Shown one piece after another: positions 7,451-30,522 of a stretch of DNA of 40,683 nucleotides. The position numbers and the translations under genes were made by a program. This DNA is from a bacterium (GTDB lineage Bacteria; Chloroflexota; Dormibacteria; Aeolococcales; Bog-877): assembly GCA_021802045.1 (NCBI GenBank), contig JAKABB010000014.1, forward strand, positions 1 to 40,683, given 5' to 3'. The notes under the pieces were generated by a model. That model was not told the DNA's origin, did not search any database, and saw nothing but the letters and a program-made list of their open reading frames with translations. Numbering within the stretch: position 1 is the first letter of the stretch; every line of letters starts with the position of its first letter.

Positions 7451-9478
7451 TCACGACGACCGTTCCCGTCCAAGGTCGACGAAGTAGTCGATCAGTGACG
7501 GGTCGTCGATGGCCCCCAGGCTCAGAGCGCTGGCCACCGGGCTGCCCTGGAGCAGCCTCTTCACGGGGACCTCGAGCTTCTTGCCCGTCAGGGTGTGGGG
7601 CACCCCCGCCACGACGAGGATCTCATCGGGTACGTGCCGCGGGGAGGCCCCGCTCCGGATCGCGTCATTGATCCTCTGGCGGAGTGCATCGTCCAGAATG
7701 CAGCCCGCTTCCAGGGCCACGAACAGCGGCATCCAGTAGCCACCGTCGGGCTGCTCCACCCCTATGACGAGCGCCTCTCGCACCTCGGGCAGCCTCTCCA
7801 CCGCCTCGTAGATGTCGGAAGTCCCCATTCGCACCCCCATGCGGTTGAGGGTGGAGTCCGAGCGACCATGAACTATCGCCGTCCCTCGCTCGGTAATGGT
7901 GATCCAGTCACCGTGGCGCCAGACCCCGGGGAAGGTCGCGAAATACGCGTCGCGGTAACGACTGCCGTCCGGGTCGTTCCAGAAGTAGAGTGGCATCGAG
8001 GGCATGGGCCGGGTGACCACCAGCTCGCCGACTTCGCCGACGATCGGCTGACCGTTCTCACTCCAAGCCTCGACGCCGGCTCCCAGCGCCCTCGCCTGGA
8101 TCTCTCCCTCCCACACCGGGAGGGTCACCGCCCCTCCCACCAGCGCCCCCGCGATATCGGTGCCACCGCTGATCGAGTAGAGCCACACGTCGGGCTTCAC
8201 CGCTTCGTACACCCACCTGAAGCCGCTCGGTGGAAGCGGAGAACCGGTTGAGCCGATCGCGCGGAGCGACGATAGGTCACACCGCTCGCCCGGGCGCAGA
8301 CCCGCCTTGGCGCAGGCGAGGATGAATGCCGCACTGGTACCGAACGAGCTGATCCTGCACTCCTCGACCAGCCGCCACAGCCGGCCGATGTCGGGGTGCA
8401 TCGGGCTCCCGTCATAGAGGACGCTCGTGGCGCCCACCAGCAGGCCGGCGACCACCAGGTTCCACATGACCCAACTCGTGCTGGTGAACCAGAAGAAGCG
8501 GTCCTCGGAGGTCAGGTCCGCCGCCAGGGCCACCACCTTCATGTGCTCCAGCAGCACCCCCCCATGGCTGTGGACGATGCCCTTGGGCAAGCCTGTTGTG
8601 CCGGAGGAGAACAGGACCCACAGTGGATGGTCCGCGGGCACTGGACTGAACACCGGCTCCCCCTCGCCTGCGGCCATCTCCTCGAACATCACCGTGTCGA
8701 TCCCCTGGGGCGGGGCCAGCCCCAGATGGGACACGAACACGGTGTGCCGCAGCGACGGCAGCTGGGACCTGAGTTCCACCAGCACCTCCCGCCGATCATG
8801 GTCGCGGCCACCGTACCGGTAGCCGTCCGCCGCCACCAGCACCGCGGGCTCGAGCTGGCGAAACCGATCCACCACGCTCCGCGTCCCGAAGTCCGGCCCA
8901 CACACCGACCAGACGGCGCCGATGCTGGCCGAAGCCAGGAACGCCACCACCGCCGCGGGAATGTTGGGCAGGTAGCCGACCACCCGCTCGCCGGGCTGGA
9001 CACCCATCTCCCGCAGCGACGAGGCCACCGCACCGACCTGGCGCCGCAACTCTGCCCAGGTCAACTCCGAAGCGGCGCCGTGCTCGCTGGTGAATATCAC
9101 GGCCGGCTGGTCGTCGCTCCCATGCCGGAGGGCATGCTGGGCGAAGTTCAGGCGGGCCCCGGGAAACCAGCGCACGCCGGGCATCGAGGTTCCCACGAGG
9201 ACCCTCTCGTAGGGTGCCGAGGCTTGGATGTCGAAGAAATCCCACAGGGACCCCCAGAAGTCCTCCGCCCGATCGACCGACCATCGCCAGAGATCGTCGT
9301 AACCGCCGAATGCAAGGCCCCGGTTCTCCTTGAGCCACCGCAGGTACCGCGTGATCCCCGCAGCCGCCAGCCGCTCCGCAGAGGGCCTCCACAGCACTGC
9401 GGGCTCCACCTCGCCCGTCCTGCCGGCACCGGTCGGCTCGTGGGGCACCGGCCCTGCCTGATGGCTCGGGGTCCTCAC
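7451..9478 (-). CDS. aacS: Acetoacetyl-CoA synthetase
   Basis: A 675-residue adenylate-forming ligase expected to convert acetoacetate, ATP and CoA to acetoacetyl-CoA in the cytosol. The N-terminal cap motif (DFWGSLWDFFDIQ, residues 73-85) and MPGVRWFPGARLNFAQ are typical of the acetoacetyl-CoA synthetase branch. The P-loop SSGTTGLPKG lies at 291-300. The C-terminal TLTGKKLEVPVKR (Lys633) supplies the adenylation lysine, also the usual acetylation site. Length matches the family. It starts with GTG in a GTGA overlap with the upstream ligase stop, so it is translationally coupled as the last gene of the operon. It probably recovers acetoacetate made by the pathway. Confidence 0.92.
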   Translation of the reverse strand: MRTPSHQAGPVPHEPTGAGRTGEVEPAVLWRPSAERLAAAGITRYLRWLKENRGLAFGGYDDLWRWSVDRAEDFWGSLWDFFDIQASAPYERVLVGTSMPGVRWFPGARLNFAQHALRHGSDDQPAVIFTSEHGAASELTWAELRRQVGAVASSLREMGVQPGERVVGYLPNIPAAVVAFLASASIGAVWSVCGPDFGTRSVVDRFRQLEPAVLVAADGYRYGGRDHDRREVLVELRSQLPSLRHTVFVSHLGLAPPQGIDTVMFEEMAAGEGEPVFSPVPADHPLWVLFSSGTTGLPKGIVHSHGGVLLEHMKVVALAADLTSEDRFFWFTSTSWVMWNLVVAGLLVGATSVLYDGSPMHPDIGRLWRLVEECRISSFGTSAAFILACAKAGLRPGERCDLSSLRAIGSTGSPLPPSGFRWVYEAVKPDVWLYSISGGTDIAGALVGGAVTLPVWEGEIQARALGAGVEAWSENGQPIVGEVGELVVTRPMPSMPLYFWNDPDGSRYRDAYFATFPGVWRHGDWITITERGTAIVHGRSDSTLNRMGVRMGTSDIYEAVERLPEVREALVIGVEQPDGGYWMPLFVALEAGCILDDALRQRINDAIRSGASPRHVPDEILVVAGVPHTLTGKKLEVPVKRLLQGSPVASALSLGAIDDPSLIDYFVDLGRERSS

Positions 9479-11103
9479 GGCAGGTGGACCCAGGACCCGG
9501 CCTCCCCAGGCCGGCCAAAGCGTTCACGGAGGTCGGTCTTCATCACCTTCCCACTCGCGTTGCGCGGGAGCTCGTCCACCATGACCACCGCGCTCGGCTT
9601 CTTGTAGGACGCGAGCCGCTCCTTGCAGTACGCGATGATCTCGTCACCGGTTGGAGGGTCGGCCGAGTCTGCGGGGACGATCACGGCCACCGGCGTCTCC
9701 CCCCATCGGGGGTCGAACACGCCGATGAGCGCGACCTCCCTCACCTTCACGTGACCCTCGATGACGGCCTCGACCTCAGCACAGTAGATGTTCTCGCCGC
9801 CGGAGATGATCATGTCCTTCTTGCGGTCGACCACCGCGATGTACCCCTCCTCGTCCATCCGGCAGAGATCACCCGAATGGAACCAGCCGCCGGTGAATGC
9901 CTCCTCGGTCTCCGCGGGCCTGCCCCAGTAGCCCTGCATCACCGTCGGCCCCCGGTAGACGATCTCCCCGACCTCCCCCTGGGCCACGTCCGCCATCTGG
10001 TCATCGACCAGGCGGACCTCCACGTTCACTACAGGCCTGCCGACCGAGTGGATCTTGCGGATGGCGTCCTCGCCCCTGAGCACGCAGGTGACCGCGCTCA
10101 TCTCCGTCTGGCCGAACCCGTTGTAGATGGGAGTGCCCGGGAAGGTGTCCGCCATGGCCCGTATCACCGAAGGCGGAGCGATCGAGCCCCCCGTGAGGAT
10201 GCGGCGGAGCTTGAACGCTCGCTCCTTGACCCCAGGCACCGCGCAGATGGCCTGCCACTGCGCCGGAACGAACAGGCACGCCGTCGCCTCCTCGCGAACG
10301 AGCGACTCCACCGCGGAGAGTGGATCGAACTGTCCCGACGGCAGTATCACCGATGCTCCCCCGACCATGAGATAGGGCAGGAAGCCGTCCAGGCACCCGA
10401 CGTGGAACAGGGGCAACCCCGACAGCCAGACCCGGTCCTCACTCTCCATGCTCATGGCGCTCATCATGTTGAAGGTGTTCATCATCAGGTTGTAGTGCGA
10501 CAGCACGGCCCCCTTCGGTCGTCCGGTGGTGCCCGAGGTGTACATGATGAACGCCGGTGCGCTCTCCGCCACGTCGACCTCAAGGGGTGCGGGGGACGAG
10601 GCACCGATCAACGCCTCATAGTCTTCGCAATCATCGCCGACCTGCTCCGGAGCACCCCCGACCATCACGCATCCGATGGGCGGGCCGCGGTGTGCCACCC
10701 GTCCTCGCGCCGCCGCCGCCAGCGTGGCCAGCTCGGAGTCCACCACCAGGATCCTGGCCCCCGAGTCCTCCAGGATGTAGGCCACCTCGTCCGCGGCCAG
10801 CCTGAAGTTGACAGGGACGGCCATGGCCCCGAGCCGGCACGCGGCCAGATAGGACTCGATGACCTCGATGCGATTCATCATCAGGACCGCCACTCGATCC
10901 CCATAGCCAACGCCGCGCTCCGACAGCGCCCTGGCGAGCCGCGTGACCCGATCCTCCGCCTCGGCGAAGTCGATCTCATGCCCCTCGCAGCGAAAGGCGA
11001 CCTGGGAGGGCGTGCGGCGCGCCGCCCGGGCCAGCTGCTCTCCCAGCGACATCCGGCGCGCAGCCGCCAGGAGCCTTGCCGCCGCGGTCTCGCTTGGCAT
11101 CAT
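9475..11103 (-). CDS. Acyl-CoA synthetase (FadD-like ligase) 1
   Basis: A 542-residue class I adenylate-forming enzyme, about the usual length for FadD-like carboxylic acid-CoA ligases. P-loop MYTSGTTGRPKG lies at 188-199, the A5-type GFGQTEMS motif follows mid-protein, then FHSGDLCRMDEEGYI and DRKKDMIISGGENIY in the hinge region, and the C-terminal NASGKVMK (Lys519) adenylation lysine. All core motifs are intact. A GGAGGG site lies 3 bases before the first ATG and 6 before the second (11100), so the second may be the true start. It overlaps aacS by 4 bases. The substrate cannot be read from sequence. Confidence 0.88.
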   Translation of the reverse strand: MMPSETAAARLLAAARRMSLGEQLARAARRTPSQVAFRCEGHEIDFAEAEDRVTRLARALSERGVGYGDRVAVLMMNRIEVIESYLAACRLGAMAVPVNFRLAADEVAYILEDSGARILVVDSELATLAAAARGRVAHRGPPIGCVMVGGAPEQVGDDCEDYEALIGASSPAPLEVDVAESAPAFIMYTSGTTGRPKGAVLSHYNLMMNTFNMMSAMSMESEDRVWLSGLPLFHVGCLDGFLPYLMVGGASVILPSGQFDPLSAVESLVREEATACLFVPAQWQAICAVPGVKERAFKLRRILTGGSIAPPSVIRAMADTFPGTPIYNGFGQTEMSAVTCVLRGEDAIRKIHSVGRPVVNVEVRLVDDQMADVAQGEVGEIVYRGPTVMQGYWGRPAETEEAFTGGWFHSGDLCRMDEEGYIAVVDRKKDMIISGGENIYCAEVEAVIEGHVKVREVALIGVFDPRWGETPVAVIVPADSADPPTGDEIIAYCKERLASYKKPSAVVMVDELPRNASGKVMKTDLRERFGRPGEAGSWVHLP

Positions 11104-11130: not shown

Positions 11131-11928
11131 TCACTCGTTCCGAAACACCGGCCGCCGCTTCTCCTTGAACGCCGCTGGCCCTTCCCTGGCATCGTGCGAC
11201 GCGAACACCTCCGCCCCGATCCCCAACTCGACCAGGAACGCCTCTGCCTCCGGCAAGCCCATGCATGCCAGCACCGATCGCTTGATCGCCTGCACAGCGA
11301 CAGGTCCATTGCCAGCGATCCGGTCGGCGATCTCCCGGGCCACGGCCATCAGCTGCGGCGCCTCCACCACCCGTCCGATCAGCCCGCAAGCCAGGGCCTC
11401 TCCCGCGCTCAACATCCGAGCCGTGAGCAGGATGTCCATGGCGTGGGTGAAGGGAATCTGCCGGGGCAGCCTGACGGTCGAGCCCCCGGCCGGAAACAGC
11501 CCCCACCGCGCTTCCTGCAGGGCAAACCGGGCGTCTGGTACCGCCAGGCGGATGTCGGTCGCCTGCAACAACTCCAGCCCCCCCGCCACGCAGTACCCGT
11601 TCACCGCGGCGATGACGGGCTTGGACAGCGGCTGCTTCAGGAAGGCTTCCCCAATCACGGGCATCGCCCCCAGCGCCGCCCCGGCATCCGGCGCCGCCGC
11701 GACCTCCCCGGTGATGGCTGGGATCAGCGAGCCCAGATCCGCCCCGGAGCAGAACGCACGTGATCCCGCCCCTGTCACGATTGCCACGTAGCAGGTGGCA
11801 TCGTTCTCCACCGCGCCCCACGCAGCGGCCAGCTCCCCCAGGTCGCTCAGGGTCAGGGCGTTCAACGTCCGCGGCGAGTCCAGGGTGACGGTAGCCACAT
11901 GACCGTCAAGCTGGTAGTGCACCGGCAT
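11131..11928 (-). CDS. Enoyl-CoA hydratase/isomerase (crotonase family)
   Basis: A 265-residue crotonase. The start at 11928 follows GGGAGAG and gives the normal family length. The oxyanion-hole segments are SRAFCSGADL (residues 56-65) and VAGGLEL (114-120). Both glutamates used by hydratases appear to be kept: Glu119 in AGGLEL and Glu139 in ALQEARWG. It should add water across a 2-enoyl-CoA formed by the neighbouring dehydrogenase. It lies 27 bases upstream of the next ligase and 20 downstream of another. Isomerase or lyase activity cannot be excluded in this broad family. Confidence 0.88.
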   Translation of the reverse strand: MPVHYQLDGHVATVTLDSPRTLNALTLSDLGELAAAWGAVENDATCYVAIVTGAGSRAFCSGADLGSLIPAITGEVAAAPDAGAALGAMPVIGEAFLKQPLSKPVIAAVNGYCVAGGLELLQATDIRLAVPDARFALQEARWGLFPAGGSTVRLPRQIPFTHAMDILLTARMLSAGEALACGLIGRVVEAPQLMAVAREIADRIAGNGPVAVQAIKRSVLACMGLPEAEAFLVELGIGAEVFASHDAREGPAAFKEKRRPVFRNE

Positions 11929-11948: not shown

Positions 11949-13472
11949 CTAGCTCGACCCGCCCAGCTCGGCCCGCAGCGCCGGCTTGAGGACCTTGCCA
12001 GTGGCGCTGCGCGGGAGGGCGTCGACGAAGACCACCGATCGGGGCACCTTGTACGATGCTATCCGCGAGCGCAGGAACTCCAACAGGCTGTCGCCGTCCA
12101 CGGCCAGCCCGGGGCGTCTCACCACCACCGCCAACGGCACCTCCCCCCACTTCTCGTCGGCGACGCCGATCACCGCCACCTCCGCCACGGCCGGATGGCC
12201 TTCGAGAATCCGCTCCAGCTCCGCCGGGTAGATGTTCTCACCGCCGCTGATGACCATGTCCTTCTTGCGGTCAACCAGGTAGTAATAGCCTTCCTGGTCG
12301 CGGTAGCCGATGTCCCCCGTCTTGAACCATCCGTCCACGATCGCGTCTCGGGTGGCCTCCGGGTTCTTCCAATAGGCCTGGAAGACGTGTGGGCCTCGCG
12401 TCAGCAGCTCCCCACGCTCTCCCGGCCCCAGCTGCCGTCCGTCCTCGCCGGCAACGCACACGTCCGAGTGAAAGACCGGCAATCCCACCGACCCCAGCTT
12501 GCGGGTCGCGTCCTCCATCGGGAGCAGTGTCACGAACGGGCTTGTCTCCGTCAGGCCGAATCCCTGCGCGAGCGCCACCCCGCGGGTCTCGTAGGCCTCA
12601 ATCACACTGAGCGGGCACGGAGCCCCGCCGACGAACAGGAAGCGCAGCGAGGTCAGGTCGGCACTCGACCAGTTCGGTGCCTGCAGCATCATCTGGAACA
12701 TCGTGGGCGGTCCGAACATCGTCGTCACGTGCTCCCGCTCTATGGCCTCCAAGGTCCGCACCGGGTCGAACGCCCGCTCCAGGAACACCGCTCCTCCTGC
12801 ATGGATGGTGGGGGTGGTGAAGATGTTCAAGGCGCCCATATGGAACAGGGGTGCCGCCACGTAGGTGGTATCAGTGGAGAGGATCGGATAGGCCAGGTGG
12901 CCGTTGACCGAGTTGAAATAGGTGTTGCCGTGGCTGATCACCGCTCCCTTGGGCCGGCCCGTCGTGCCCGAGGTGTACATGATCAGCTGATAGTCGTCCA
13001 GGGTCACGTCGTCCGCCGGTTCCGTCTCCTCTGCCCCGCTGAGAAGGCCCTCGTAGCCACTCCCGTCTCCACCCCCACTCCCACCGACCCCCACCAAGCG
13101 CACGCCTGGGACCGCGACCCCCATCTGGCCCGCGGTCGCAGCCAGCCCCCCGTCGTGGAAGAGCACTCGGGCGCCGCAGTCCGCCAGGATGTATGCCGCC
13201 TCGGACGGGGCCAGGCGGAAGTTCACGGGCACGAAGATGGCCCCGATCTTGGCGCAGGCGAAGTACACCTCCAAGAACTCGGCGCCGTTGTAGAGGAGCA
13301 CGGCCACCCGGTCGCCCTTGGCCACTCCTGCCCCTCGGAGCGCGGACGCCACCCGATTCACTCGCCGATTGGCCTCGGAGTACGAGTAGCTCCGTCCGCC
13401 AGAGGTCCACACCGTATGGTCTGGTCTGACCTCGGCCCACTTGCGAATCCATGATCCGGTTCCGGAAATCAC
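11949..13472 (-). CDS. Acyl-CoA synthetase (FadD-like ligase) 2
   Basis: A 507-residue adenylate-forming ligase. The start is a GTG at 13472 in a GTGA overlap with the dehydrogenase stop; longer in-frame starts would run deep into that gene with nonsense sequence. P-loop MYTSGTTGRPKG lies at 165-176, FGLTETSPF is the A5 motif, then FKTGDIGYRDQEGYYY, DRKKDMVISGGENIYPAELE, and SATGKVLK with Lys493. Motifs are complete. It resembles ligase 1 in the hinge, suggesting paralogy, but the two differ enough to expect different substrates. Translational coupling to the dehydrogenase hints that its product is that enzyme's substrate. Confidence 0.88.
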   Translation of the reverse strand: MISGTGSWIRKWAEVRPDHTVWTSGGRSYSYSEANRRVNRVASALRGAGVAKGDRVAVLLYNGAEFLEVYFACAKIGAIFVPVNFRLAPSEAAYILADCGARVLFHDGGLAATAGQMGVAVPGVRLVGVGGSGGGDGSGYEGLLSGAEETEPADDVTLDDYQLIMYTSGTTGRPKGAVISHGNTYFNSVNGHLAYPILSTDTTYVAAPLFHMGALNIFTTPTIHAGGAVFLERAFDPVRTLEAIEREHVTTMFGPPTMFQMMLQAPNWSSADLTSLRFLFVGGAPCPLSVIEAYETRGVALAQGFGLTETSPFVTLLPMEDATRKLGSVGLPVFHSDVCVAGEDGRQLGPGERGELLTRGPHVFQAYWKNPEATRDAIVDGWFKTGDIGYRDQEGYYYLVDRKKDMVISGGENIYPAELERILEGHPAVAEVAVIGVADEKWGEVPLAVVVRRPGLAVDGDSLLEFLRSRIASYKVPRSVVFVDALPRSATGKVLKPALRAELGGSS

Positions 13473-14629
13473 TTGGCGACCCCCTGCTCTCCAACAAGAC
13501 CGAGCCTGCGCGCGATTACTTCCTTCTGAATCTGCGAGGTGCCGCCCCCGATCGTCATCACGCGCGCATCTCGGTAGAACCGCTGCACGTCGCTGTCCAT
13601 CATGAACCCATAGCCGCCATGTATCTGGATCGCGTCCCCGGTCACCCGATTCACCATCTCCCCGGCGACATAGCGGGCCATCGAGGACTCCAGGGTGCAG
13701 CTCTCCTCCCTCTGCAGCTTCCATGCGGCCTCGTAGGTCAACAGTTGGGCCGCGCGCCACCTGGCCTCCATGTCGACGATCATGAAGCGAATGTCCTGAA
13801 ACGACGCGATCGGCTGTCCGAACTGCCTGCGGGCGAGCGCGTAGCTCTTGGCCTGCTCCAGCGCCGCCCGAGCCAGGCCCACACAGTCCGCGGCCATCAC
13901 GATCCGCTCCAGGTTCAGGTTCTCCATGAGGTAGTAGAAGCCCCGCCCGGCTTCCCCGATCAGGGAGCCCGCTGGCACCCTGCAGTCCTCGAATAGCAGC
14001 TCCGCCGTGTCCGAAGCGCGCCAGCCGAGCTTGTCGAGGTGCCGAGCCACCTTGAAACCGGGGCTGCCGGCATCCACGATGAACAGACTGATCCCGCGGT
14101 GACCGGGTCCGCCCGTCCGGGCAGCGACCACGACGAAGTCGGCGATGCAGCCGTTGGTGATGAATACCTTGGTCCCGTTGAGGACATAGCCGTCCCCATC
14201 AGGACGAGCCGTGGTGCCGATGGAGGCGACATCCGACCCTGCGTCAGGTTCGGTCATCGCGATGGCCCCAATCATGTCCCCGGAGGCGGCCGGGGGCAGG
14301 TAGCGCGCGCGCTGCTCCGCCGAGCCGAACCTGTAGATGGGGTTGACGGCGATCACGGAGTGGACCAGGAGCGAGGCGTCGATGCCGCTGGAGGCGTAGG
14401 CCATCTCCTCCGCCGCCACCACCAGCATCATCACATCCGCCGAGGCGCCGCCGTATTGCTCCGGTAGCTGGATACAGAGGTATCCGTGCTTCCCGAGCGA
14501 CCTCAGTACCTGGACGGGGAACTCCCCAGCCCTGTCCGCGGCGGCGGCGATAGGCGCCACCTCGTTCTCCACGAACCGCCGGTACTCGCGGCGGAACAGT
14601 TCATGCTCGCCATCGAAGTAGATGCTCAC
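13469..14629 (-). CDS. Acyl-CoA dehydrogenase with IVD/LCAD-type catalytic base position
   Basis: A 386-residue FAD acyl-CoA dehydrogenase of normal length. AMTEPDAGSDVASI (residues 124-137) and KVFITNG (154-160) are the flavin/substrate signatures, and ARRQFGQPIASFQ and IQIHGGYGFMMD complete the fold. At the usual glutamate position before GTSQIQ there is Gly (IGGGTSQIQ, 360-368). Glu241 in LNLERIVMA sits where isovaleryl-CoA and long-chain dehydrogenases carry their base, so catalysis is expected from there, which fits a branched or bulky substrate. It is 8 bases downstream of the TetR gene and overlaps ligase 2 by 4 bases. Confidence 0.9.
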   Translation of the reverse strand: MSIYFDGEHELFRREYRRFVENEVAPIAAAADRAGEFPVQVLRSLGKHGYLCIQLPEQYGGASADVMMLVVAAEEMAYASSGIDASLLVHSVIAVNPIYRFGSAEQRARYLPPAASGDMIGAIAMTEPDAGSDVASIGTTARPDGDGYVLNGTKVFITNGCIADFVVVAARTGGPGHRGISLFIVDAGSPGFKVARHLDKLGWRASDTAELLFEDCRVPAGSLIGEAGRGFYYLMENLNLERIVMAADCVGLARAALEQAKSYALARRQFGQPIASFQDIRFMIVDMEARWRAAQLLTYEAAWKLQREESCTLESSMARYVAGEMVNRVTGDAIQIHGGYGFMMDSDVQRFYRDARVMTIGGGTSQIQKEVIARRLGLVGEQGVAK

Positions 14630-14637: not shown

Positions 14638-15306
14638 CTATCCCGCGTTGCCGCGTAGCATCGCGACGATCTGCTGACCATACTGGCGGCTCAGGTCATC
14701 CAGGCTCTGGCCTCGCCCCGGGACGTACCAGGTCGCCGTCCAGATCAAGCCGCCGAGGATGAGGTTCCTGGTGCTCGACACCTCACACGGCGCGAACTCA
14801 CCGGAGCTGACTCCATCGCTGAGCAACCCGTCCACCAGGTGCTCGTACCGATGTCGCAGGGCCTTGATCTCCACCCGGTACTCGTCGGGGAGGCGGCGGT
14901 CCTCCTGGATGAAGAACCATGCCAGGGGGAACTCCTCGATCAGGAAGCGAAGGTGAGCCGCAACCCAGACCCGGATCCGATCGGCGGAACTGGCGTGGCT
15001 GCAGCCGGAGAGCTGACTGCTCACCCGGTCGTAGGCGAGCTCGGTGGCAGCTCTCTCGCAGGCGTAGAGCAACTCATCCTTGCTCCTGAAGTAGTTGTAG
15101 AGGTTGCCTCTGCTCATCTCAACCCTGTCGGCCAGGTCCTCCACCCGGAATCCTTGATAGCCCTTCTCCGCCAGCAGCCCTGCCGCCTGGCGCAGGATCT
15201 CCCTGGTCTTCGTCTGCCGCCTCTTGGCCGGGTAGCCCTTGGATCGGGCCGACCGCGCCTTGGGCGCGTCCTCCAGAGGAGCCACCTGCCGTTCCCCCGA
15301 CCTCAT
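14638..15306 (-). CDS. TetR/AcrR-family transcriptional regulator
   Basis: A 222-residue repressor-type regulator. The N-terminal basic stretch (residues 20-35) precedes a TetR helix-turn-helix (about 38-80) with FRVEDLADRVEMSRGNLYNYFRSKDELLYA, and the rest is an all-helical ligand-binding domain. It lies inside the operon between a ligase and the dehydrogenase, so it probably controls its own transcription by sensing an acyl-CoA intermediate; that ligand is inference from fatty-acid and steroid regulators of this family. Upstream in-frame sequence gives no better start; the ribosome site is weak (G-rich only). Confidence 0.88.
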   Translation of the reverse strand: MRSGERQVAPLEDAPKARSARSKGYPAKRRQTKTREILRQAAGLLAEKGYQGFRVEDLADRVEMSRGNLYNYFRSKDELLYACERAATELAYDRVSSQLSGCSHASSADRIRVWVAAHLRFLIEEFPLAWFFIQEDRRLPDEYRVEIKALRHRYEHLVDGLLSDGVSSGEFAPCEVSSTRNLILGGLIWTATWYVPGRGQSLDDLSRQYGQQIVAMLRGNAG

Positions 15307-15361: not shown

Positions 15362-16891
15362 TCACTTGTAGATCCTCCTCAGGGTCACCTTGTCGACCTT
15401 GCCCGTGGCCAGGGTGGGCATTGCCTCCACCAGAGCTATCCGCTGGGGCTTCTTGTAACTCGCCATTCGGGAGCGGCAGTGCTCGATCAGCTCCTCCTCT
15501 CGGGCGACGCTGCCGGGGCGGAGCACCACCACCGCCATCACCGCCTCGCTCCACTTCTCATCAGGCACCCCGATGACGGCGGCCTGCACCACATCCGGAT
15601 GCTGGGTCAAGACCTCCTCCACCTCAGCCGCATAGATGTTCTGGCCCCCGGACTTGATCATGTCCTTCTTGCGGTCCACGAAATACAGCGCCCGCCCGCT
15701 GTCGAAGCGCCCCAGGTCGCCGGTGTAGAGCCATCCGTCGCGAAGGCCCTGGGCCGTGGCCTCCGGGTTGTTCAGATAGCCGCTGAACACATTGGGCCCA
15801 CGTACGATGATCTCGCCCACCTCGCCGATCGGGAGCTCCCGGCCGGCATCGTCGACGATGCGCACCTCCACCGTCACCGCCGGCTTGCCCACCGATCCCG
15901 GATACCTGAGGGCATCCTCCCGGATCAGCACGCTGACCAGCGGGGCAGCCTCCGTGAGGCCGTAGGCGTAGAGGAGCGGCTCCCGGAGGACCTCGGCGAG
16001 CCGCTTGACCGTGGTCCCCGCGACCACCCCCCCGGCCGCCAATGGCAGGCTCAGGCTCTGGAAGTCGTAGCCGTCGAGGCCTTCCAGATGGGCCAGCGCG
16101 GACCACATCGTGGGCGCCATGTAGACGAATCGCACCCGCTCGGCCTCGATGGCCCGGGCCAACACAGCCGCATCAAAGCCGCCGGCAGTGGGAATGATCA
16201 CCACCTTGCCGCCTTCCACCAGGGTCGGGAAGGTGTTGGTCTGGACCCCGGCGGTGTGGAAGAGCGGCACGGCACAGGCGTTCACGCGCAGGTTCTCGGC
16301 AGAGAGGGTGGAGATCATCGCCATCGCGTTCCAGAGCCAGTTGCCGTTGGTCAGCAGTGCCCCCTTGGGCTGGCTGGTGCTTCCCGAGGTGTACATCACG
16401 GCCTGGACATCGTCCAGGCCGGGCTCAAGCGCTCCGCGACGACCGTCCCCCTTCTCGCTCTCCATGAGCGCGTCGTAGTCCACCGCCTGGCTCCACTGCC
16501 GTCCCCCCACGGCCAGGAAGTGGGCCAGGCCGGAGCAACGCTCGGCGCAGCGGACGACGGTGCCTTCGTACCTCGCGTCATAGACCACCACCAGCGCCGC
16601 GGAATGGGTCAGGAAGAAGGTCAGCTCATCGGCGGTCAGCCGCGTGTTCAGGGGAACACACCACGCCCCCAGGCGCGCCAGGGCGAAGTAGACTTCCAGG
16701 AACTCGATGGAGTTGTCCATCAGCAAGGCGACCCGGTCGCCCTTGCCAATGCCCAAGTGCCGCATCAGGCTGGCGGCGGTCGCCACCCGTCGGTCGAGGG
16801 CTCCGTAAGTGACCCGGCGCTCTCCACAGACCAGGGCCTCGCGCTCCGGATAGCGCTCCGCCCATCGCTCGATCACCGTGGCGACATTCAC
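15362..16891 (-). CDS. Acyl-CoA synthetase (FadD-like ligase) 3, variant P-loop
   Basis: A 509-residue ligase with the full set of AMP-forming motifs: P-loop MYTSGSTSQPKGALL (166-180), YGLTEAAPLVSV (A5), LYTGDLGRFDSGRALYFVDR, KKDMIKSGGQNIYAAEVEEV, and ATGKVDKVTLRR with Lys498. The P-loop has Ser-Gln where neighbours have Gly-Arg (SGSTSQPKG versus SGTTGRPKG), an uncommon but tolerable change. It starts 18 bases after the DUF35 stop. It is the most upstream ligase in the operon and may activate the entry substrate. Confidence 0.86.
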   Translation of the reverse strand: MNVATVIERWAERYPEREALVCGERRVTYGALDRRVATAASLMRHLGIGKGDRVALLMDNSIEFLEVYFALARLGAWCVPLNTRLTADELTFFLTHSAALVVVYDARYEGTVVRCAERCSGLAHFLAVGGRQWSQAVDYDALMESEKGDGRRGALEPGLDDVQAVMYTSGSTSQPKGALLTNGNWLWNAMAMISTLSAENLRVNACAVPLFHTAGVQTNTFPTLVEGGKVVIIPTAGGFDAAVLARAIEAERVRFVYMAPTMWSALAHLEGLDGYDFQSLSLPLAAGGVVAGTTVKRLAEVLREPLLYAYGLTEAAPLVSVLIREDALRYPGSVGKPAVTVEVRIVDDAGRELPIGEVGEIIVRGPNVFSGYLNNPEATAQGLRDGWLYTGDLGRFDSGRALYFVDRKKDMIKSGGQNIYAAEVEEVLTQHPDVVQAAVIGVPDEKWSEAVMAVVVLRPGSVAREEELIEHCRSRMASYKKPQRIALVEAMPTLATGKVDKVTLRRIYK

Positions 16892-16909: not shown

Positions 16910-17386
16910 TCACGCGAGCCTGAAGTGAAAGTCGGTGATCAGCCCCTCTCGGGGATCGGCAAACACAGCCTCGACCCTGTTCCCCAGCGCCAACCGCTGC
17001 GCCGCCGCCGCCGGGACTGACAGGTCCACCCCGGTCACGAAGTTGGCCATGGCGGTGCTGGCCCCGTCGAGGGTCACGTAGGCCACCACGTAGGGTGGCC
17101 GAGGCAGTCCGTCGAAGGGCTCGTAGACGATGGTGAAGGCCTCGATCGTGCCCAACGGGCCCACCTCGACCCAGTCGGTGGTCTTGACGAAGCAGCGTTC
17201 GCAGTACGCCCGGGGCGGCACCAGGACCGCCTGGCAGCCGGGACAGCGGCGGCCCATGATCCTTGCATGGTCGCGCAGGTCCGTGAAGAACTGCCTGGCG
17301 GTGTCGCCCACCGCGTAGTCGTAATGTATGTTCCACTGACCGGGATGGATCAGCGGCTGCCCGGCCGGCGCCCCGTCACTCACCAT
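16910..17386 (-). CDS. DUF35 Zn-ribbon/OB-fold acyl-CoA-binding protein
   Basis: A 158-residue DUF35 protein. The rubredoxin-like Zn ribbon is Cys48-x2-Cys51...Cys62-x2-Cys65 (RRCPGCQAVLVPPRAYCERC), followed by an OB fold from about 75 to 150 containing GPLGTIEAFTIVYEPF and ending GLITDFHFRLA. AGGAAGGGG precedes the ATG. DUF35 proteins pair with thiolase-fold enzymes and often carry the CoA site; the steroid aldolase Ltp2 needs such a partner. It follows the two Cys-less thiolase-fold genes, which supports a complex with them. Confidence 0.88.
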   Translation of the reverse strand: MVSDGAPAGQPLIHPGQWNIHYDYAVGDTARQFFTDLRDHARIMGRRCPGCQAVLVPPRAYCERCFVKTTDWVEVGPLGTIEAFTIVYEPFDGLPRPPYVVAYVTLDGASTAMANFVTGVDLSVPAAAAQRLALGNRVEAVFADPREGLITDFHFRLA

Positions 17387-17459
17387 AACCCCTTCCTGCT
17401 GCCTGACATGGCTAATGCCTCAGAACGCGCTCCCCTAGAGAAGCCCCGTCGATCCGTCC

Positions 17460-18641
17460 CTACATGTCACTGGCCAGGACCATGCATGTGTGGAACTGGA
17501 GGGTTCCGCCGATGCCGGTCGCGACCGCCCGCCGCGCCCCGGGGACCTGCCTCGCTCCGGCATCTCCCATCACCTGCAAGGCGGCTTCGGCCACGCGGGC
17601 CAGGGCCGTCGCCGAGATCGGGTTGGCGCTCAGAACGCCGCCCGAGGGATTGACCGGCATCGGTCCATCCATGGCGAACATTCCCTGCTCGCTCAGCAAG
17701 CCACCGCGGCCCTTGTCACAGAAGCCCAGGGCCTCCACCGCGGCGATCTCGGTGCAGGTGAAGGGCGCGTAGATCTCGGCGACATCGATCTGCGCCAGCG
17801 GGTCGCTGATGCCGGCCCGTCTGTAGGCCGTCGCCGCCGCAAGGGCCAGTTCGTCCCAGTCCGCGTGATCAGTGCGGCGGCCGGGGCCCATCTTGTCACC
17901 CATGTAGATGGTGTTGCTGGTAGCGCCCATCCCCCTGATCCAGGCCGCGCGGGTGTGGCCTGCCGCCACCACCGACTCGGCCGCCATGATGACGGCGCAA
18001 GCGCCCGACGAACGAGGGCAGCAGTCGAGCAGCTTCAGCGGCCAGCAGACATAGCGAGATGAGAGAACCTCGTCCAGCGTGACCGGCCGCCTCAGGTGGG
18101 CATGGGGGTTGGCGCCTGCATTCTGCCGGCTTCGCACCGCCACCGACGCCAGCTGGTGCTCGGTAAGACCGTACTGCTGCATCTGCCGGACTGCCTGGAA
18201 GGAGCACATGTTGATGGCATTGAGGGCGATGCTCCGCTCGTAGACCGGGTCCATCGCGGTGTTCAGGACCCACTGGGCGTCCGGGCTCTCGGAGACCTTG
18301 TCGGCGGCGACCACCATCACGGTGCGGACCATGCCCGATGCCACGTGCACGTAGCCGGCCTGGGCGGCCGCCGCGCCGGTTGTGCCGCCGGTGTTGACCC
18401 GGAGCTGGGGTCGAGGAGCCACACCCAGTGCCTGGCCCATCCACCTGTCGACATTGTCGATCCCGATCAGGGCGTCCGGCGCCACCCCCAGGACGAAGGC
18501 GTCTATCTCGCCCATCTCCATGCGGGCGTGCGCCAGAGCCTTTGCCGCCGCCTCTTGGGTCAGCTCCTGGATGGTCACGTCGGTCCGCTTGAACCGGTAG
18601 TCGGTCTGGCCGACTCCGACAATGGCTGTTCTAGTGGGCAT
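17460..18641 (-). CDS. Thiolase-fold protein without catalytic Cys (Ltp/SCP-x type) 1
   Basis: A 393-residue thiolase-superfamily protein starting at the ATG at 18641, which has GGAG 7 bases upstream; an ATG at 18656 would overlap the previous stop by one base but lacks a ribosome site. At the nucleophile site the sequence is VNTGGTTGAAAAQAG (about 82-96), with no Cys. NPSGGVLSANPISATALAR is kept but the usual C-terminal Cys motif is replaced by ATGIGGTLQFHTCMV. This is the pattern of lipid-transfer-protein thiolases that act as retro-aldolases with DUF35 partners rather than as thiolases. It probably forms a heteromer with the upstream paralogue. Confidence 0.82.
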   Translation of the reverse strand: MPTRTAIVGVGQTDYRFKRTDVTIQELTQEAAAKALAHARMEMGEIDAFVLGVAPDALIGIDNVDRWMGQALGVAPRPQLRVNTGGTTGAAAAQAGYVHVASGMVRTVMVVAADKVSESPDAQWVLNTAMDPVYERSIALNAINMCSFQAVRQMQQYGLTEHQLASVAVRSRQNAGANPHAHLRRPVTLDEVLSSRYVCWPLKLLDCCPRSSGACAVIMAAESVVAAGHTRAAWIRGMGATSNTIYMGDKMGPGRRTDHADWDELALAAATAYRRAGISDPLAQIDVAEIYAPFTCTEIAAVEALGFCDKGRGGLLSEQGMFAMDGPMPVNPSGGVLSANPISATALARVAEAALQVMGDAGARQVPGARRAVATGIGGTLQFHTCMVLASDM

Positions 18642-18655
18642 CCGGCTGCTCCACA

Positions 18656-19810
18656 TCAGGAGTTGCGCATGACGAAGACGGCATGGCTCTGCGCCGGGTA
18701 GGTGGTGGCGCCATGGGCCAGACCCTGTGCCGGTGCGGCGAGCTGAACCGGACCCGCCCGGTGGCTGAGCTGGAGATACGCCTCCAGGATCCGGCTCAGC
18801 CCCGAGGCGAAGCGGAGATTGGCCGACTGGACCCCGCCGGAGGGATTGACCGGGCAGGCCCCCCCTCGGGCAGAGCTGCCATCGAGGGCGAATGCCGGCC
18901 CGCCTCCCGCCGCCGCCAAGCCCAAGGCCTCATAGGCGAGGATCTCGTGATACGGCGTTCCGTCGAATACCTCCGCGAAGTCCAGCTCCCGTCCCGGGTC
19001 CCTGATCCCCGCTCTCGCGTAGGCCATCGCTGCGGCGGCCCGGAGACCGCCGAACTCCGCCGGGACCTTGGCGCCCACGCCGTAGTCCCCCGTACCCCAG
19101 CCGAAACCCTGTATCCAGACCGGGGGACGGGCGGACCGGAGGGCACGCCGTTGCGAGCCAAGGACCAGGGCCACCGCGCCGTCGCAGGCCTGGGGCACCT
19201 CCGCCCGCCGGATCGGGTAGGCAACATAGCGACTGCTGGAGACGGCTTCTGGGGTGATCGCCTCCCGGAGGAAGGCCCGGGGGTTGGCCGCGCCGTTGCC
19301 ACGGTTCTTGGCCACCACCACTGGCGCCGCCTCGGCCAGGTCTCCCCGGGGACCGGCGTAGCTGCTGGCCACGGCCGCTGCCTCGACCACGTCGTTGAAC
19401 GCCAGGGGGCGATGGTAGAACGGATCGTAGGACAAGGTGGAGATCAGGTCGTAAGGACCTTCCGAGGTCTTGCTCCACGTGATGGCCAGCGCCGTCTCGA
19501 ACTCCCCCGACAGGATCCGCAAGCAGGCCAGCACGGCTGCGTAGCTGCCCTCGACCGTCGTCCGGATCTCGTCCTTGAGATAGGCACCGGCCGGGCAGGC
19601 CGCCATCATCGATGAGATCGAGCGGCCGTCCATCTGGTCGGCACCGGCCATCACGATGGTGTCGAGCTCGTCACGGACCATGCCCGCGTCCGCCAGGGCG
19701 GCCCGGGCGGCCTCGAACACCAGCTCCTCCAGGCGGACATCGTCCCGGCGCCCCACCAGCGCCGTCTGGGCTCCGCCCAGGATACCGACCCGTTGTGACA
19801 CCATGTTCAA
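18656..19810 (-). CDS. Thiolase-fold protein without catalytic Cys 2
   Basis: A 384-residue paralogue and the first gene of the operon. The nucleophile region reads TTVEGSYAAVLACL (84-97), lacking the active Cys. The AEVHDCFT-type motif of true thiolases is replaced by AEVFDGTPYHE (279-289). VNPSGGVQSANLRFASG is kept. A TTG start (19810) has GGAGAG 7 bases upstream; the ATG two codons later (19804) is the alternative. With gene 17460-18641 and the DUF35 protein it probably makes an acyl-CoA-binding or aldolase complex. Which subunit, if either, is catalytic is unknown. Confidence 0.8.
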   Translation of the reverse strand: MNMVSQRVGILGGAQTALVGRRDDVRLEELVFEAARAALADAGMVRDELDTIVMAGADQMDGRSISSMMAACPAGAYLKDEIRTTVEGSYAAVLACLRILSGEFETALAITWSKTSEGPYDLISTLSYDPFYHRPLAFNDVVEAAAVASSYAGPRGDLAEAAPVVVAKNRGNGAANPRAFLREAITPEAVSSSRYVAYPIRRAEVPQACDGAVALVLGSQRRALRSARPPVWIQGFGWGTGDYGVGAKVPAEFGGLRAAAAMAYARAGIRDPGRELDFAEVFDGTPYHEILAYEALGLAAAGGGPAFALDGSSARGGACPVNPSGGVQSANLRFASGLSRILEAYLQLSHRAGPVQLAAPAQGLAHGATTYPAQSHAVFVMRNS

Positions 19811-20618: not shown

Positions 20619-22046
20619 ATGAAGAGGGGCATCGTGGCCTACGGGGCCTATCTCCCCTATTGGCGGCTCGCCCGCTCCAGCATCACCGCAGCCCTTGCGA
20701 CACCCGCCGGCCGGGGAACCAGAGCGGTTGCTTCCTACGACGAGGACACGACGACCATGGCGGTCGAGGCTGCCCGCATCGCCCTGGCAGCAGCCCCGGA
20801 AGGAGTGCGCCCCCACGAGGTGGTGCTCGCCACGGCCGCCCCGGCATATCTGGACAAGACCAACGCGGTCGCCGTCCACGACGCCCTGGGGCTCGCTCGG
20901 TCGGCCGCGGCGTTCGACATGAACGGCTCGGTGCGTTCAGGCAGCGCCGCGCTGCGCTACGCGGCCAACGCCACAGCACCGGTGCTGGCCGTGCTCTCGG
21001 ATATCCGCACCGGGCTCCCCGGCGGTGCCGACGAGCGCGACGGAGGCGACGCGGCGGCGGCGTTCCTGTTCAGCTCCGGGTCCGAGGTCGTCGCCGAACC
21101 CATCGCCCAGGCCTCGGCCACCTCGGAGTTCCTCGATCGCTGGCGGCTTCCTGGAGAGACGACCTCACACCAATGGGAGGAGCGTTTCGGCGAGCACGAG
21201 TACCTGCCCCTGGCCGAAGAGGCGATCGCGGCCACCCTGGAGGAGGCCGGTGTCACGGCCGCCGAGATCGACCACTTCATCGTGACCGGGGTTCACACCC
21301 GCGCGGTCCGGGCGGTCCAGCGCAGTGCCGCGGTACCCGCGGGCGCCCCCGCCAAGGACCTCTCCGCGGTTGTCGGCAACACCGGCACCGCTCATCAGGG
21401 CCTGGTGCTCGCCAGCGTCCTCGACTCCGCCGCGCCCGGAGCACTCATCCTGACGGTGTCGTTGGCCGACGGCGCCGTGGCGACCGTTCTGCGGGTCGGT
21501 GAAGCGATCCTCCAGTACCGCCAGCGGCGCCCAGCCGGCGGTACGGTGGCCGCCCAGGTTTCAGCGGGCCGCGGGGAGCTGCCGTACACGACGTTCCTGA
21601 CCTGGCGGGACCAGCTCCGACGTGAGCCACCGCGGCGACCCGAGCCAGCCCCTCCCGCCTCGCCCCCTGCGGCCCGGCACCGGGCCTGGAAGTTCAGCTT
21701 CGCGGCGAGCCGGTGCGGCATCTGCGGCATGCGCTTGGTACCGCCGGGGCGGGTCTGCATCGGGTGCGGAGCACTCGGCCAGATGACCCAGGAGCGGCTT
21801 GCCGATGTGCCGGGCGTCGTGGCCACGTTCACTGCCGATCGGCTGGCCTTCACACCGAACCCGCCGATGGTCGTCGCGGTGATCGACTTCGACGGTGGAG
21901 GTCGCTTCCGCTGCGAGCTCACCGATGTGGGTCCTGATGCGGTGGTGATAGGGACCCGTGTCGAGATGACATTCCGGAAGATGTCAACATCGCAGACGAT
22001 CCACAACTACTTCTGGAAGGCCCGACCGGTCCGCGAGGAAGCATGA
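20619..22046 (+). CDS. HMG-CoA-synthase-like domain fused to DUF35
   Basis: A 475-residue fusion. Residues 1-300 have the HMG-CoA synthase/ketoacyl-synthase-III fold (GIVAYGAYLPYWRL at the start; VVGNTGTAHQGLVLASVLD at 251-269). Residues 355-475 are a DUF35 unit with Zn ribbon Cys366/369/380/383 and an OB fold. The active-site Cys of HMG-CoA synthases (ACxAG) aligns with Val105 in NGSVRSGSAAL, and the Glu site reads ATAAPAY, so HMG-CoA synthase chemistry is unlikely. The C-terminal domain probably binds CoA. It overlaps the downstream thiolase by 4 bases, echoing the archaeal thiolase/HMGCS/DUF35 complex. Starts at an ATG with GGGAG 9 bases upstream. Confidence 0.82.
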   Translation: MKRGIVAYGAYLPYWRLARSSITAALATPAGRGTRAVASYDEDTTTMAVEAARIALAAAPEGVRPHEVVLATAAPAYLDKTNAVAVHDALGLARSAAAFDMNGSVRSGSAALRYAANATAPVLAVLSDIRTGLPGGADERDGGDAAAAFLFSSGSEVVAEPIAQASATSEFLDRWRLPGETTSHQWEERFGEHEYLPLAEEAIAATLEEAGVTAAEIDHFIVTGVHTRAVRAVQRSAAVPAGAPAKDLSAVVGNTGTAHQGLVLASVLDSAAPGALILTVSLADGAVATVLRVGEAILQYRQRRPAGGTVAAQVSAGRGELPYTTFLTWRDQLRREPPRRPEPAPPASPPAARHRAWKFSFAASRCGICGMRLVPPGRVCIGCGALGQMTQERLADVPGVVATFTADRLAFTPNPPMVVAVIDFDGGGRFRCELTDVGPDAVVIGTRVEMTFRKMSTSQTIHNYFWKARPVREEA

Positions 22047-23251
22047 CAATGGCCGCCAGAGGGATTCGCGACCAGGTGGCGATAGTCGGGATGGGGTGCA
22101 CGCGCTTCGGTGAGCACTGGGACAAGGGGGCCGAGGACCTGCTCATCGACGCCGCTACGGAGGCCTTCGCCTCGGCGGGGGTGTCCAAGGAGGATGTCGA
22201 CGCCTACTGGCTGGGGACCATGGGGTCGGGGATATCTGGACTCACCCTGTCGAAGCCGCTCTGCCTTGACTACAAGCCTGTGACGCGGGTCGAGAACATG
22301 TGCGCCACCGGTTCCGAGGCCTTCCGCAACGCCTGTTACGCAGTCGCATGTGGTGCCGTCGACATGGCCATGGCCATCGGTGTGGAAAAGCTGAAGGACA
22401 GCGGCCTATCTGGTCTGGTTCTCCCGTCGGCGCCCGCGGATGGCACCGCTTCGGAGCTCACCGCACCGGCCCTCTTCAGCCTGCTGGCACCCGCCTACGA
22501 GCGGAAGTACGGAGTGGACCCCGCGGCGCTCAAGGACGTCCTGACGCGCATTGCCTGGAAGAACCATCACAACGGCTCTCTGAACCCGCGCGCGCAGTTC
22601 CGGCGAGAAGTCGACAAGGCCACCATCGCCTGCAGCCCGATCGTGGCGGGACAACTTGGCATATTCGACTGTGCCGGTGTGGCCGACGGCTCCGCGGCGG
22701 CCATCATCGTGCGCGCTGCTGATGCCCACCGCTACACCGACAAGCCGGTCTTCGTGAAGGCCCTGAGCTTCGTGGCTGGACCGGCGTCTGGCACGGCCGA
22801 CCCGGCCTACGACTACACGACCTTTCCCGAAGTGGTGCGGGCGGGACGCAACGCCTACATGGAGGCGGGGGTCGAAAACCCTCGGGCAGAGCTCGCCATG
22901 GCCGAGGTGCATGACTGTTTCACTCCCACGGAGCTGGTCATATACGAGGACCTGGGTTTCGCCGAACGTGGCCAGGGATGGAAGGAGGCCCTGGCCGGCA
23001 CCTTCGACCTCGACGGGGATCTCCCGGTCAACCCCGACGGAGGGCTCAAGGCCTTCGGGCATCCCATTGGGGCCAGCGGGCTGCGGATGCTATTCGAAGC
23101 CTGGCTCCAGCTGCGGGGCGAGGCGCCGCCGGAACGCACCATCAGGTCGATCGCCCAGGGACGGAAGCTGGCCCTCACCCACAACCTCGGCGGCGCCCCC
23201 GGGGAGTGCGTGAGCTTCGTCTCCATCGTTGGCAGGGAACCCACGGCGTAG
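22043..23251 (+). CDS. Thiolase (SCP-x/acetyl-CoA acyltransferase type), catalytically intact
   Basis: A 402-residue thiolase with all expected residues: nucleophile Cys87 in ENMCATGSEA, His290 in EVHDCFTPTE, His340 in AFGHPIGASG, and the C-terminal THNLGGAPGECVSF. It should cleave 3-ketoacyl-CoA or condense acyl-CoAs. GAGGAAGC precedes the start, and the ATGA overlap couples it to the HMGCS-like/DUF35 fusion, its probable partner. It is the only thiolase in the cluster with a nucleophile, so it probably does the pathway's thiolysis while the minus-strand pair does something else. An ATG two codons in is an alternative start. Confidence 0.9.
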   Translation: MTMAARGIRDQVAIVGMGCTRFGEHWDKGAEDLLIDAATEAFASAGVSKEDVDAYWLGTMGSGISGLTLSKPLCLDYKPVTRVENMCATGSEAFRNACYAVACGAVDMAMAIGVEKLKDSGLSGLVLPSAPADGTASELTAPALFSLLAPAYERKYGVDPAALKDVLTRIAWKNHHNGSLNPRAQFRREVDKATIACSPIVAGQLGIFDCAGVADGSAAAIIVRAADAHRYTDKPVFVKALSFVAGPASGTADPAYDYTTFPEVVRAGRNAYMEAGVENPRAELAMAEVHDCFTPTELVIYEDLGFAERGQGWKEALAGTFDLDGDLPVNPDGGLKAFGHPIGASGLRMLFEAWLQLRGEAPPERTIRSIAQGRKLALTHNLGGAPGECVSFVSIVGREPTA

Positions 23252-25225: not shown

Positions 25226-25435
25226 ATGGCTAACGAGCAAGACCTCCCACGGCTGCTTTGGCGCCCGGACGAAGCCTGGCAGATATTGGGCATCGGGCCC
25301 ACCACGGGCTGGAAGTTGGTGCGCTCCGGCGAGCTCGAAGTGGCCCGGATCGGCGGTTGCACCCGGATCCATGATATGGAGCTCCGCCGATTCGCGGCAG
25401 AGCAGGCTGGCCTCGCGATTGAAGAGGTTGGCTGA
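25226..25435 (+). CDS. Excisionase/AlpA-like helix-turn-helix protein
   Basis: A 69-residue single-domain DNA-binding protein of the MerR-like HTH_17 class: RPDEAWQILGIGPTTGWKLV (residues 13-32) is the HTH, and SGELEVARIGGCTRIHDMEL with a final helix forms the wing. Such proteins serve as excision or directionality factors or as copy-control regulators in integrative elements. Its stop overlaps the next gene's ATG by one base, so it is coupled to the replication ATPase. The perfect inverted repeat just upstream is its likely target. Confidence 0.82.
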   Translation: MANEQDLPRLLWRPDEAWQILGIGPTTGWKLVRSGELEVARIGGCTRIHDMELRRFAAEQAGLAIEEVG

Positions 25436-26685: not shown

Positions 26686-26821
26686 CCCCGACGGAGCGGG
26701 GGCGGCTTGAGAGAGAGAAGGCGCGGCGCGGCGCGCCCGAGGTCCGAGCGCCCCACCTCATTTCCTCTCGCGTCCCCTTGGCCAATGTGGGCCCCGACGG
26801 ACCTGAAAAGGAGGGCGTGAG

Positions 26822-27211: not shown

Positions 27212-27353
27212 TCGCGACGCCGCGACAGCGGGGCCACTCGTGGCGGGACGCAATTTCCGCGCTTGGACGCTCGCTTTCTTTGTCGTTTTTCTGTCGCTCC
27301 TGGTCGGCTACGGTGAGCGAATGAGAACCGTTACGCCTACGCCCGTCGCGAGG

Positions 27354-27587: not shown

Positions 27588-27623
27588 GCGCGAACTCTAG
27601 CACAGGGACGCCGCCAGATTGGG

Positions 27624-27665
27624 ATATTGTGACGCTTGCATATTGTAATTCCCCCGTGCTATACT
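27624..27665 (+). promoter_or_regulatory. Promoter of the transfer-region operon with ATATTGT direct repeats
   Basis: TTGCAT (27636-27641), an 18-base spacer and TATACT (27660-27665) form a good promoter in an unusually AT-rich patch. ATATTGT is repeated at 27624-27630 and 27640-27646 (16-base period), the second overlapping the -35 box. On the minus strand TACAAT (27647-27642) could be the -10 of the RHH gene. The overlapping divergent arrangement fits repression by the RHH protein. Confidence 0.6.
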
Positions 27666-27695
27666 ATGCCTATGGACCGACATAGAGGTGCTGGC

Positions 27696-30517: not shown

Positions 30518-30522
30518 CCCTC

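Follow-up and report, generated by a model that had tools for sequence, protein, structure and literature searches.

Two cysteine-less thiolase-fold proteins and a DUF35 protein in a Dormibacteria contig: a candidate heteromeric retro-aldolase of the Ltp3/Ltp4 kind

The window analysed here is a stretch of 40,683 nucleotides, contig JAKABB010000014.1 of the Dormibacteria assembly GCA_021802045.1 (contig C29 of genome G000, a draft of 3.01 Mb that is 86% complete). It holds two adjacent genes for different thiolase-fold proteins, here called A and B, and a gene for a stand-alone DUF35 protein. We propose that the products of this trio form a heteromeric retro-aldolase, of which B would be the catalytic subunit and A and the DUF35 protein the partners; we hold this proposal with middling confidence. 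The nearest precedent is the Ltp4/Ltp3 pair, to which the aldol cleavage of C24-branched intermediates of plant sterols is ascribed. Our preferred reading of the window pair is a branch of the Ltp3/Ltp4 kind that does not act on sterols, B being the putative catalytic member.

SCP2-type thiolases are marked by a nucleophilic Cys, an HDCF motif and a GHP motif, all three of which are missing from A and B. In the nucleophile column, where the plus-strand thiolase of the window has its Cys (VENMC), B has Gly91 (RVNTGG) and A has Gly88 after Glu87 (RTTVEG). HDCF is replaced by YAPF in B and by FDGT in A, and GHP by ANP and ANL, respectively. An earlier note on this DNA had described two proteins without the nucleophile Cys, a single DUF35 gene directly after them and a true thiolase on the other strand, and all of this is borne out. 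Since they have no nucleophilic Cys, A and B cannot be thiolases by the usual Cys mechanism; proteins of their type are nevertheless labelled thiolases or acetyl-CoA acetyltransferases, and such annotations call for caution.

The residues that B has instead are sharply conserved. Gly91, Pro298 and Asn345 are each invariant in the 35 B rows of the alignment, and a survey of 71 loci found the same signature in all 12 of its B-type genes, which are partly the same as the 35 rows. In B numbering, the Cys thiolases have Cys91 (12/12), His296 (12/12), Cys298 (10/12) and His345 (12/12), and the Ltp2-like rows have Gly91 and Tyr296 (both 10/10). Position 296 is Tyr in 25 of the 35 B rows, Phe in nine and Gln in one; Tyr is present at 296 or 299 in 33 rows, and eight of the ten rows with Phe or Gln at 296 have Tyr at 299. 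Among the A proteins (34 rows), no invariant residue set comparable to that of B was found. An Asp or Glu immediately precedes the former Cys position in 29/34 A rows, a count that drops to 23/34 in another alignment, the Ltp4 rows shifting at the nucleophile site between the two. The eight YDxF rows of the tree described below are absent from the alignment behind the 29/34 and the 296/299 counts.

Two aldolases of the thiolase fold provide a frame for these residues. The catalytic residues are Tyr294 and Tyr344 in Ltp2 and Tyr302 and Cys304 in Sal, which has Gly at the place of the thiolase Cys, according to PMC12329534. Tyr296 of B aligns with the bases Tyr294 of Ltp2 and Tyr302 of Sal, and Tyr344 of Ltp2 adjoins N345-P346 of B (numbering on 6ok1). 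The feature common to Ltp2 and Sal, Gly for Cys together with the Tyr base of YDxF, is thus present in B (G91, Y296), whereas A has G88 but Phe at the Tyr position. Two points argue for an aldolase: the exchange of Cys for Gly, found in all B rows as in all Ltp2-like rows and in Sal, against Cys in all thiolase rows, and the location of Tyr296 on the base position.

A tree was computed from 91 proteins: 35 of B type, 34 of A type, 12 Cys thiolases, two Ltp2 and eight other Cys-less YDxF proteins (hand-picked). Not included are the A of L043, which is truncated, both proteins of the L114 pair, L035, the B proteins from L082 and L086, and Sal. A branch with support of 100/100 separates A and B together from the rest. 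The window proteins lie on the A+B side of it, with partner and DUF35 gene adjoining, and so belong to the paired Cys-less A/B family as drawn here. Window A groups with L008-L011, L012 and L044 (100/98) and window B with the same loci (96/91). The other clades are the Cys thiolases (99/91), Ltp2 with the YDxF proteins (100/100), and these two sets together (100/100). Neither A nor B falls among the proven thiolases, a placement to which the earlier note had given decisive weight.

The A group contains a subclade of six Ltp4 rows and the B group one of six Ltp3 rows, each with support of 100/100 and neither including the window proteins. Ltp3 and Ltp4 are cited as aldol lyases in two sources (PMC6678751, PMC6593523), and their position inside the A and B groups is a further argument for the aldolase reading. 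In the NCBIfam profile comparisons, window B scores 339.5 bits against a cut-off of 514 for PRK08313 and window A 101.3 against 419 for PRK07937, both far below, while the pairs of L046, L047 and L072 exceed these cut-offs. The contig of L072 also carries an Ltp2 over cut-off, with an EchA19-like hydratase nearby; in the window genome, at 86% completeness, neither Ltp2 nor HsaA was found over cut-off. The Ltp4/Ltp3/DUF35 genes are probably Rv3522, Rv3523 and Rv3521 of Mycobacterium tuberculosis, an assignment from protein sizes that fits the gene neighbours. Like the window, the Ltp loci encode two different Cys-less thiolase-fold proteins side by side, with DUF35, and the Y-x-P-F motif and N-P of B are common to both, but the Ltp loci have a double DUF35 and the window a single domain of 158 aa. 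The earlier note had suggested that a pair of different Cys-less subunits would be a variant. The arrangement is not new, since Ltp3-Ltp4 is already termed a heteromeric aldol-lyase in PMC6678751 and the Ltp4/Ltp3 loci share the A-B-DUF35 build.

Ltp2-ChsH2 (6ok1) resembles B in its thiolase fold, its Gly for Cys, the Tyr at the base position and its DUF35 partner, but Ltp2 is a single kind of thiolase-fold subunit, with YDHF and Tyr344, and belongs to a separate clade by the approximately unbiased (AU) test. Sal-Shy (9myr) shares with B the Gly for Cys, the Tyr302 base and a DUF35 partner; the acid of Sal, however, is Cys304 of YDCY, where B has Pro298, and the DUF35 of Shy is part of a MaoC-DUF35 protein, as described in PMC12329534. 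PRK06066/PRK06065 is a further A/B-type pair with DUF35 (at L110, B scores 643 bits against a cut-off of 455 and A 491 against 516, just under), which differs by its separate A and B subclades and its two DUF35 genes; PRK06065 and PRK06066 are each over cut-off in one of 14 control genomes.

Several observations weigh against a retro-aldolase built on B. The second catalytic residue of each studied aldolase (Tyr344 of Ltp2, Cys304 of Sal) is missing from B, which has N345-P346 and, as third motif residue, Pro298, so that the chemistry of Ltp2 and Sal is not simply transferable. Phe or Gln at 296 occurs in 10/35 B rows, two of which also lack Tyr at 299. By descent, B lies outside the Ltp2 clade: joining B with Ltp2 and the YDxF proteins was rejected (log-likelihood difference 47, p-AU 1.6e-5). 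The comparison with Ltp2 and ChsH2 made in the earlier note thus stands in part, a DUF35-partner aldolase being the best reading, but the pair is not Ltp2-like by origin, as the Ltp2-like proteins sit with the Cys thiolases (100/100). The A and B groups are each only moderately supported as monophyletic (65/89 and 64/90). The cluster contains no aldehyde dehydrogenase or other product-specific gene. Finally, no biochemistry was found for any A/B-type protein, and the claim for Ltp3/Ltp4 rests on genetics, seen as cited in other papers; among the matches listed, no title or abstract dealt with the A/B family as such or with Ltp3-Ltp4 biochemistry, and subscription papers could hold more.

A and B appear to have evolved together. 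Their patristic distances are correlated (r 0.855 for 34 pairs, r 0.740 for the 17 pairs of a thinned set), and 0/5000 permutations gave a value as high in either case. Ratios of nonsynonymous to synonymous substitution rates (dN/dS; Nei-Gojobori) are 0.123 for A, 0.028 for B and 0.090 for DUF35 between L009 and L010, and 0.088, 0.037 and 0.098, with 0.033 for the thiolase, between L009 and L011; in comparisons of the window with L008, dS was saturated. A, B and the DUF35 protein are hence under purifying selection and none is decaying. B evolves at about the rate of the true thiolase and A two to four times faster, a pattern in which B behaves like an enzyme core and A and DUF35 like partners. 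The correlation of distances and the slowness of B add to the case for an aldolase, and, together with the tree, the distances suggest that A and B are an ancient pair whose members diverged jointly, separate from the Ltp2/Sal line.

The same data bear on a non-catalytic role, in which A and B would be carriers or scaffolds for CoA esters, serving the Cys thiolase and the 3-hydroxy-3-methylglutaryl-CoA synthase (HMGS)-like protein of the divergent operon through DUF35. The loss of all canonical catalytic residues from A and B would suit this role, as would the co-conservation of the divergent operon in the window clade, the name lipid-transfer protein borne by some family members, and the case of PhlA, which is Cys-less and is thought to take no direct part in acyl transfer by PhlABC (PMC6392133). 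Yet B retains G91, P298 and N345 in every row and is as slow as a thiolase, and the HMGS-like fusion is missing from most trio loci examined, being found only in the window clade, at L113 and at L118, a locus without trio; a non-catalytic role is unlikely. In PhlABC (5m3k) and the archaeal thiolase/HMGS/DUF35 complex (6esq), a DUF35 bridges two different thiolase-superfamily subunits, as it would in the trio, but theirs are one Cys subunit and one HMGS-like subunit, whereas A and B are both SCP2-thiolase-like and Cys-less. The closer parallel to PhlABC is the plus-strand module of the window rather than A/B.

Single-chain AlphaFold models of A and B, built from 16-row alignments and compared with Foldseek and VIA-align, both show the thiolase fold (predicted local distance difference test score 82.0 for B and 77.3 for A); the low-confidence stretches of B are 125-144, 249-259 and 342-346, the last around N345. 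By VIA-align, the nearest solved folds to B are 6esq_A (Z 54.0, root-mean-square deviation 1.8, 374 aligned), Ltp2 6ok1_C (Z 46.0) and Sal 9myr_A (Z 45.2), and those to A are 6esq_A (Z 45.4) and 6ok1_C (Z 40.8). In these models the fold by itself is undecided between thiolase and aldolase.

The trio occurs in Actinomycetota, Betaproteobacteria, haloarchaea and HRbin37. Four actinobacterial metagenome-assembled genomes (L008-L011) have orthologous A-B-DUF35-LIG1-TetR-ACAD runs, that of L010 ending inside the acyl-CoA dehydrogenase gene (ACAD), with identities to the window of 70-74% for A, 81-84% for B and 72-78% for DUF35. HRbin37 (L012) has ACAD-A-B-DUF35 with 41%, 55% and 57% identity, respectively; its downstream neighbours (CofD, amine oxidase, methyltransferase, NMT1-like) did not point to a pathway. 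As all five genomes retain A and B beside DUF35, and both proteins are under purifying selection, the trio is not a chance arrangement. Further trios were recovered by tblastn of plasmids with B, A and DUF35: those of Rhodococcus, Streptomyces, Tsukamurella, Simplicispira, Haloterrigena and Natronosalvus are annotated, and those of Nonomuraea, Nocardia, Cupriavidus and Natrinema are not. When 350 genomes of the phylum were searched with a profile, 111 had some match at 1e-50, mostly to other thiolase-fold proteins, and 15 stretches were examined further. Trio loci were collected by similarity to B, and the frequency of B beside A was measured on that sample: in the survey of 71 loci, from which identical sequences and matches of <=250 residues had been dropped, 10 of the 12 distinct B-type genes have A in the same locus, and the A genes of the other two are listed under another locus (L079, for L015) or lie about 850 bases upstream (L111, for L081).

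One DUF35 domain stands beside the pair in 16/34 trios (the window clade, Simplicispira, haloarchaea and Rhodococcus sets) and two in 18/34 (as a double domain in the Ltp loci and L074, as two genes in the others). The single DUF35 beside the window pair, which the earlier note supposed to be shared, is thus a trait of lineages. Two small genomes of 1.7-1.9 Mb, G404 and G334, carry two or three A/B/DUF35 sets each (L106, L107, L108, L113), several of which have a DUF35 gene on both sides of the pair. The Rhodococcus DUF35 partner at L052 is without zinc-ribbon Cys in the alignment, and the B proteins of L052 and L055 (FNPL) are the two with no Tyr at 296 or 299.

In the window the trio is part of a 12-gene cluster, AacS-LIG3-ECH-LIG2-ACAD-TetR-LIG1-DUF35-B-A with the divergent HMGS-like-DUF35 fusion and thiolase genes (Table 1). 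The order is identical in 3/3 other contigs that are long enough, those of L127/L128 (G417), L129 (G415, whose contig ends within AacS) and L131 (G414). An additional ligase separates the two cluster halves in G417 and G415. No 3-hydroxyacyl-CoA dehydrogenase is found among the 13 named window genes, which suits a retro-aldol step, and this syntenic set of ligase, dehydrogenase and hydratase genes without it is one more support for the aldolase reading. As we infer the activity, complex, substrate and residue roles, an acyl-CoA ligase would activate an acid, probably beta-branched, the dehydrogenase would desaturate the acyl-CoA, and the hydratase would then add water. A, B and DUF35, acting as one heteromeric enzyme, would cleave the C-alpha/C-beta bond of the resulting 3-hydroxyacyl-CoA by a retro-aldol reaction, as proposed for Ltp3-Ltp4. 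B, with Gly91 replacing the nucleophile and Tyr296 as the probable base, would split it into a short acyl-CoA and a ketone, an aldehyde or a keto acid; A would be its diverged partner, giving the complex its shape or stability, while DUF35 would tether the subunits and help to hold CoA.

A rather improbable sub-case of this proposal specifies the product. The trio would cleave a 3-hydroxy-3-substituted glutaryl-CoA-like substrate, by chemistry of the HMG-CoA-lyase type on a different fold, to a free beta-keto acid that the acetoacetate-CoA ligase would re-activate for the thiolase. In each of the four genomes with a contig extending to that ligase, it is syntenic with the trio, and the thiolase and HMGS-like-DUF35 fusion are kept alongside; the Ltp3-Ltp4 pathway likewise yields a carboxylate that requires thioesterification, as reviewed in PMC6678751. 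As a general partner of the trio, however, the ligase fails: 30/30 other loci have no clear homolog (only weak matches to other ligases). The cluster also has no carboxylase gene, and a canonical HMG-CoA lyase is encoded elsewhere in the four genomes and in G416 (PRK05692 over cut-off in G000, G414, G415, G416 and G417), leaving nothing missing for the trio to replace. A search for the exact lyase signature (GLGGCPYA, then with Phe allowed) had found it in 0/6 window-clade genomes versus 7/14 others, a false negative according to the family search.

Retro-aldol reactions are reversible. The trio might thus serve biosynthesis or detoxification by forming a C-C bond, through an aldol or a decarboxylative condensation, and a terpene synthase gene does adjoin the Streptomyces clavuligerus trio (L046), just as synthetic DUF35-thiolase complexes exist (PhlABC, archaeal thiolase/HMGS). 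The neighbours in the window clade and in most trio loci are nonetheless catabolic in kind (ligases, ACAD, hydratases, TetR), and we regard condensation as the least probable reading.

Going beyond the proposed retro-aldolase itself, it is conceivable, though doubtful, that the trio represents an ancient class of its own among heteromeric acyl-CoA C-C lyases, with a site of Gly91, Pro298, Asn345 and Tyr296/299 that arose apart from Ltp2 and Sal. It would then be a third route to a thiolase-fold aldolase, spread far beyond sterols (haloarchaea, soil actinobacteria); its products would feed the acetoacetate-CoA ligase and thiolase in the window clade. For Ltp3/Ltp4, whose naming as aldol lyases comes from genetics and whose mechanism and partner structure were not found in the literature examined, the comparison provides a broader family as context: its members are obligate pairs, and one of the two subunits has a sharply conserved set of residues that is as yet unexplained. 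It would also extend thiolase-fold aldolases beyond steroids.

Table 1. Named genes of the window, with positions and strand.
Gene or product	Position	Strand	Remarks
A	18656..19810	-	384 aa; Cys-less thiolase-fold subunit, E87-G88 at nucleophile site, FDGT, ANL; probable partner subunit
B	17460..18656	-	398 aa; Cys-less thiolase-fold subunit, G91, Y296-A-P298-F, N345; probable catalytic subunit
Stand-alone DUF35 protein	16910..17386	-	158 aa; Pfam zf-ChsH2 + OB_ChsH2_C
LIG1, AMP-forming acyl-CoA ligase	15362..16891	-	syntenic ortholog 75-78%
TetR-family regulator	14638..15306	-	syntenic
ACAD, acyl-CoA dehydrogenase	13469..14629	-	syntenic 80-84%
LIG2, AMP-forming acyl-CoA ligase	11949..13472	-	open frame extends to 13760; syntenic 72-77%
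ECH, crotonase-type enoyl-CoA hydratase	11131..11904	-	best NCBIfam EchA19, below its cut-off; syntenic 72-76%
LIG3, AMP-forming acyl-CoA ligase	9475..11103	-	syntenic 71-72%
Acetoacetate--CoA ligase (AacS)	7451..9478	-	TIGR01217, 890 bits vs cut-off 521; adjoins trio in three other genomes
CoA-transferase family III protein	5669..6595	-	70% counterpart in L127, sole other contig seen reaching so far
HMG-CoA-synthase-like protein fused to DUF35	20619..22046	+	synthase Cys replaced (NGSVRSGSAAL), as in PhlA; syntenic 68-75%
Cys-bearing thiolase	22043..23251	+	PRK06157, 583 bits vs cut-off 403; VENMC, HDCF, GHP; syntenic 85-87%

The genes of A and B overlap by TGATG, and B perhaps starts at 18641, where an in-frame ATG suits the orthologs better. 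Pfam recognizes Thiolase_C_1 in A and Thiolase_N with Thiolase_C_1 in B. The DUF35 protein consists of a rubredoxin-like zinc ribbon (C-x2-C-x10-C-x2-C), with its four zinc Cys retained in the sequence, and an OB fold, and its N-terminal stretch resembles SSO2064 (match to 3irb with E 4e-15, profile 3e-24).

On the plus strand, 20619-23251 resembles a PhlA-PhlB fusion with a PhlC-like partner, and NGSVRSGSAAL of the HMGS-like fusion aligns with EFACKAGTAGI of the archaeal enzyme and QFAGKSGTSAL of PhlA. The same fusion and thiolase stand beside an A-B-DUF35-DUF35 set at L113 (G404), and at L118 (G188) without the trio. At L114 (G252:C84, 6539-8834), an adjacent thiolase-like pair follows a DUF35 gene, with NAENASPSA and NLENDSCSG at the Cys site and GHP intact. 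Another Cys thiolase with its own DUF35 gene lies at 8389-9742 of G000:C200, the only DUF35 site of the genome besides the window. Adjoining the catabolic cluster, positions 25435-38756 (+) of the window form a stretch of conjugative or plasmid-like character, in which large unassigned frames separate an AAA_25 ATPase gene from that of a TraG/TraD-type coupling protein.

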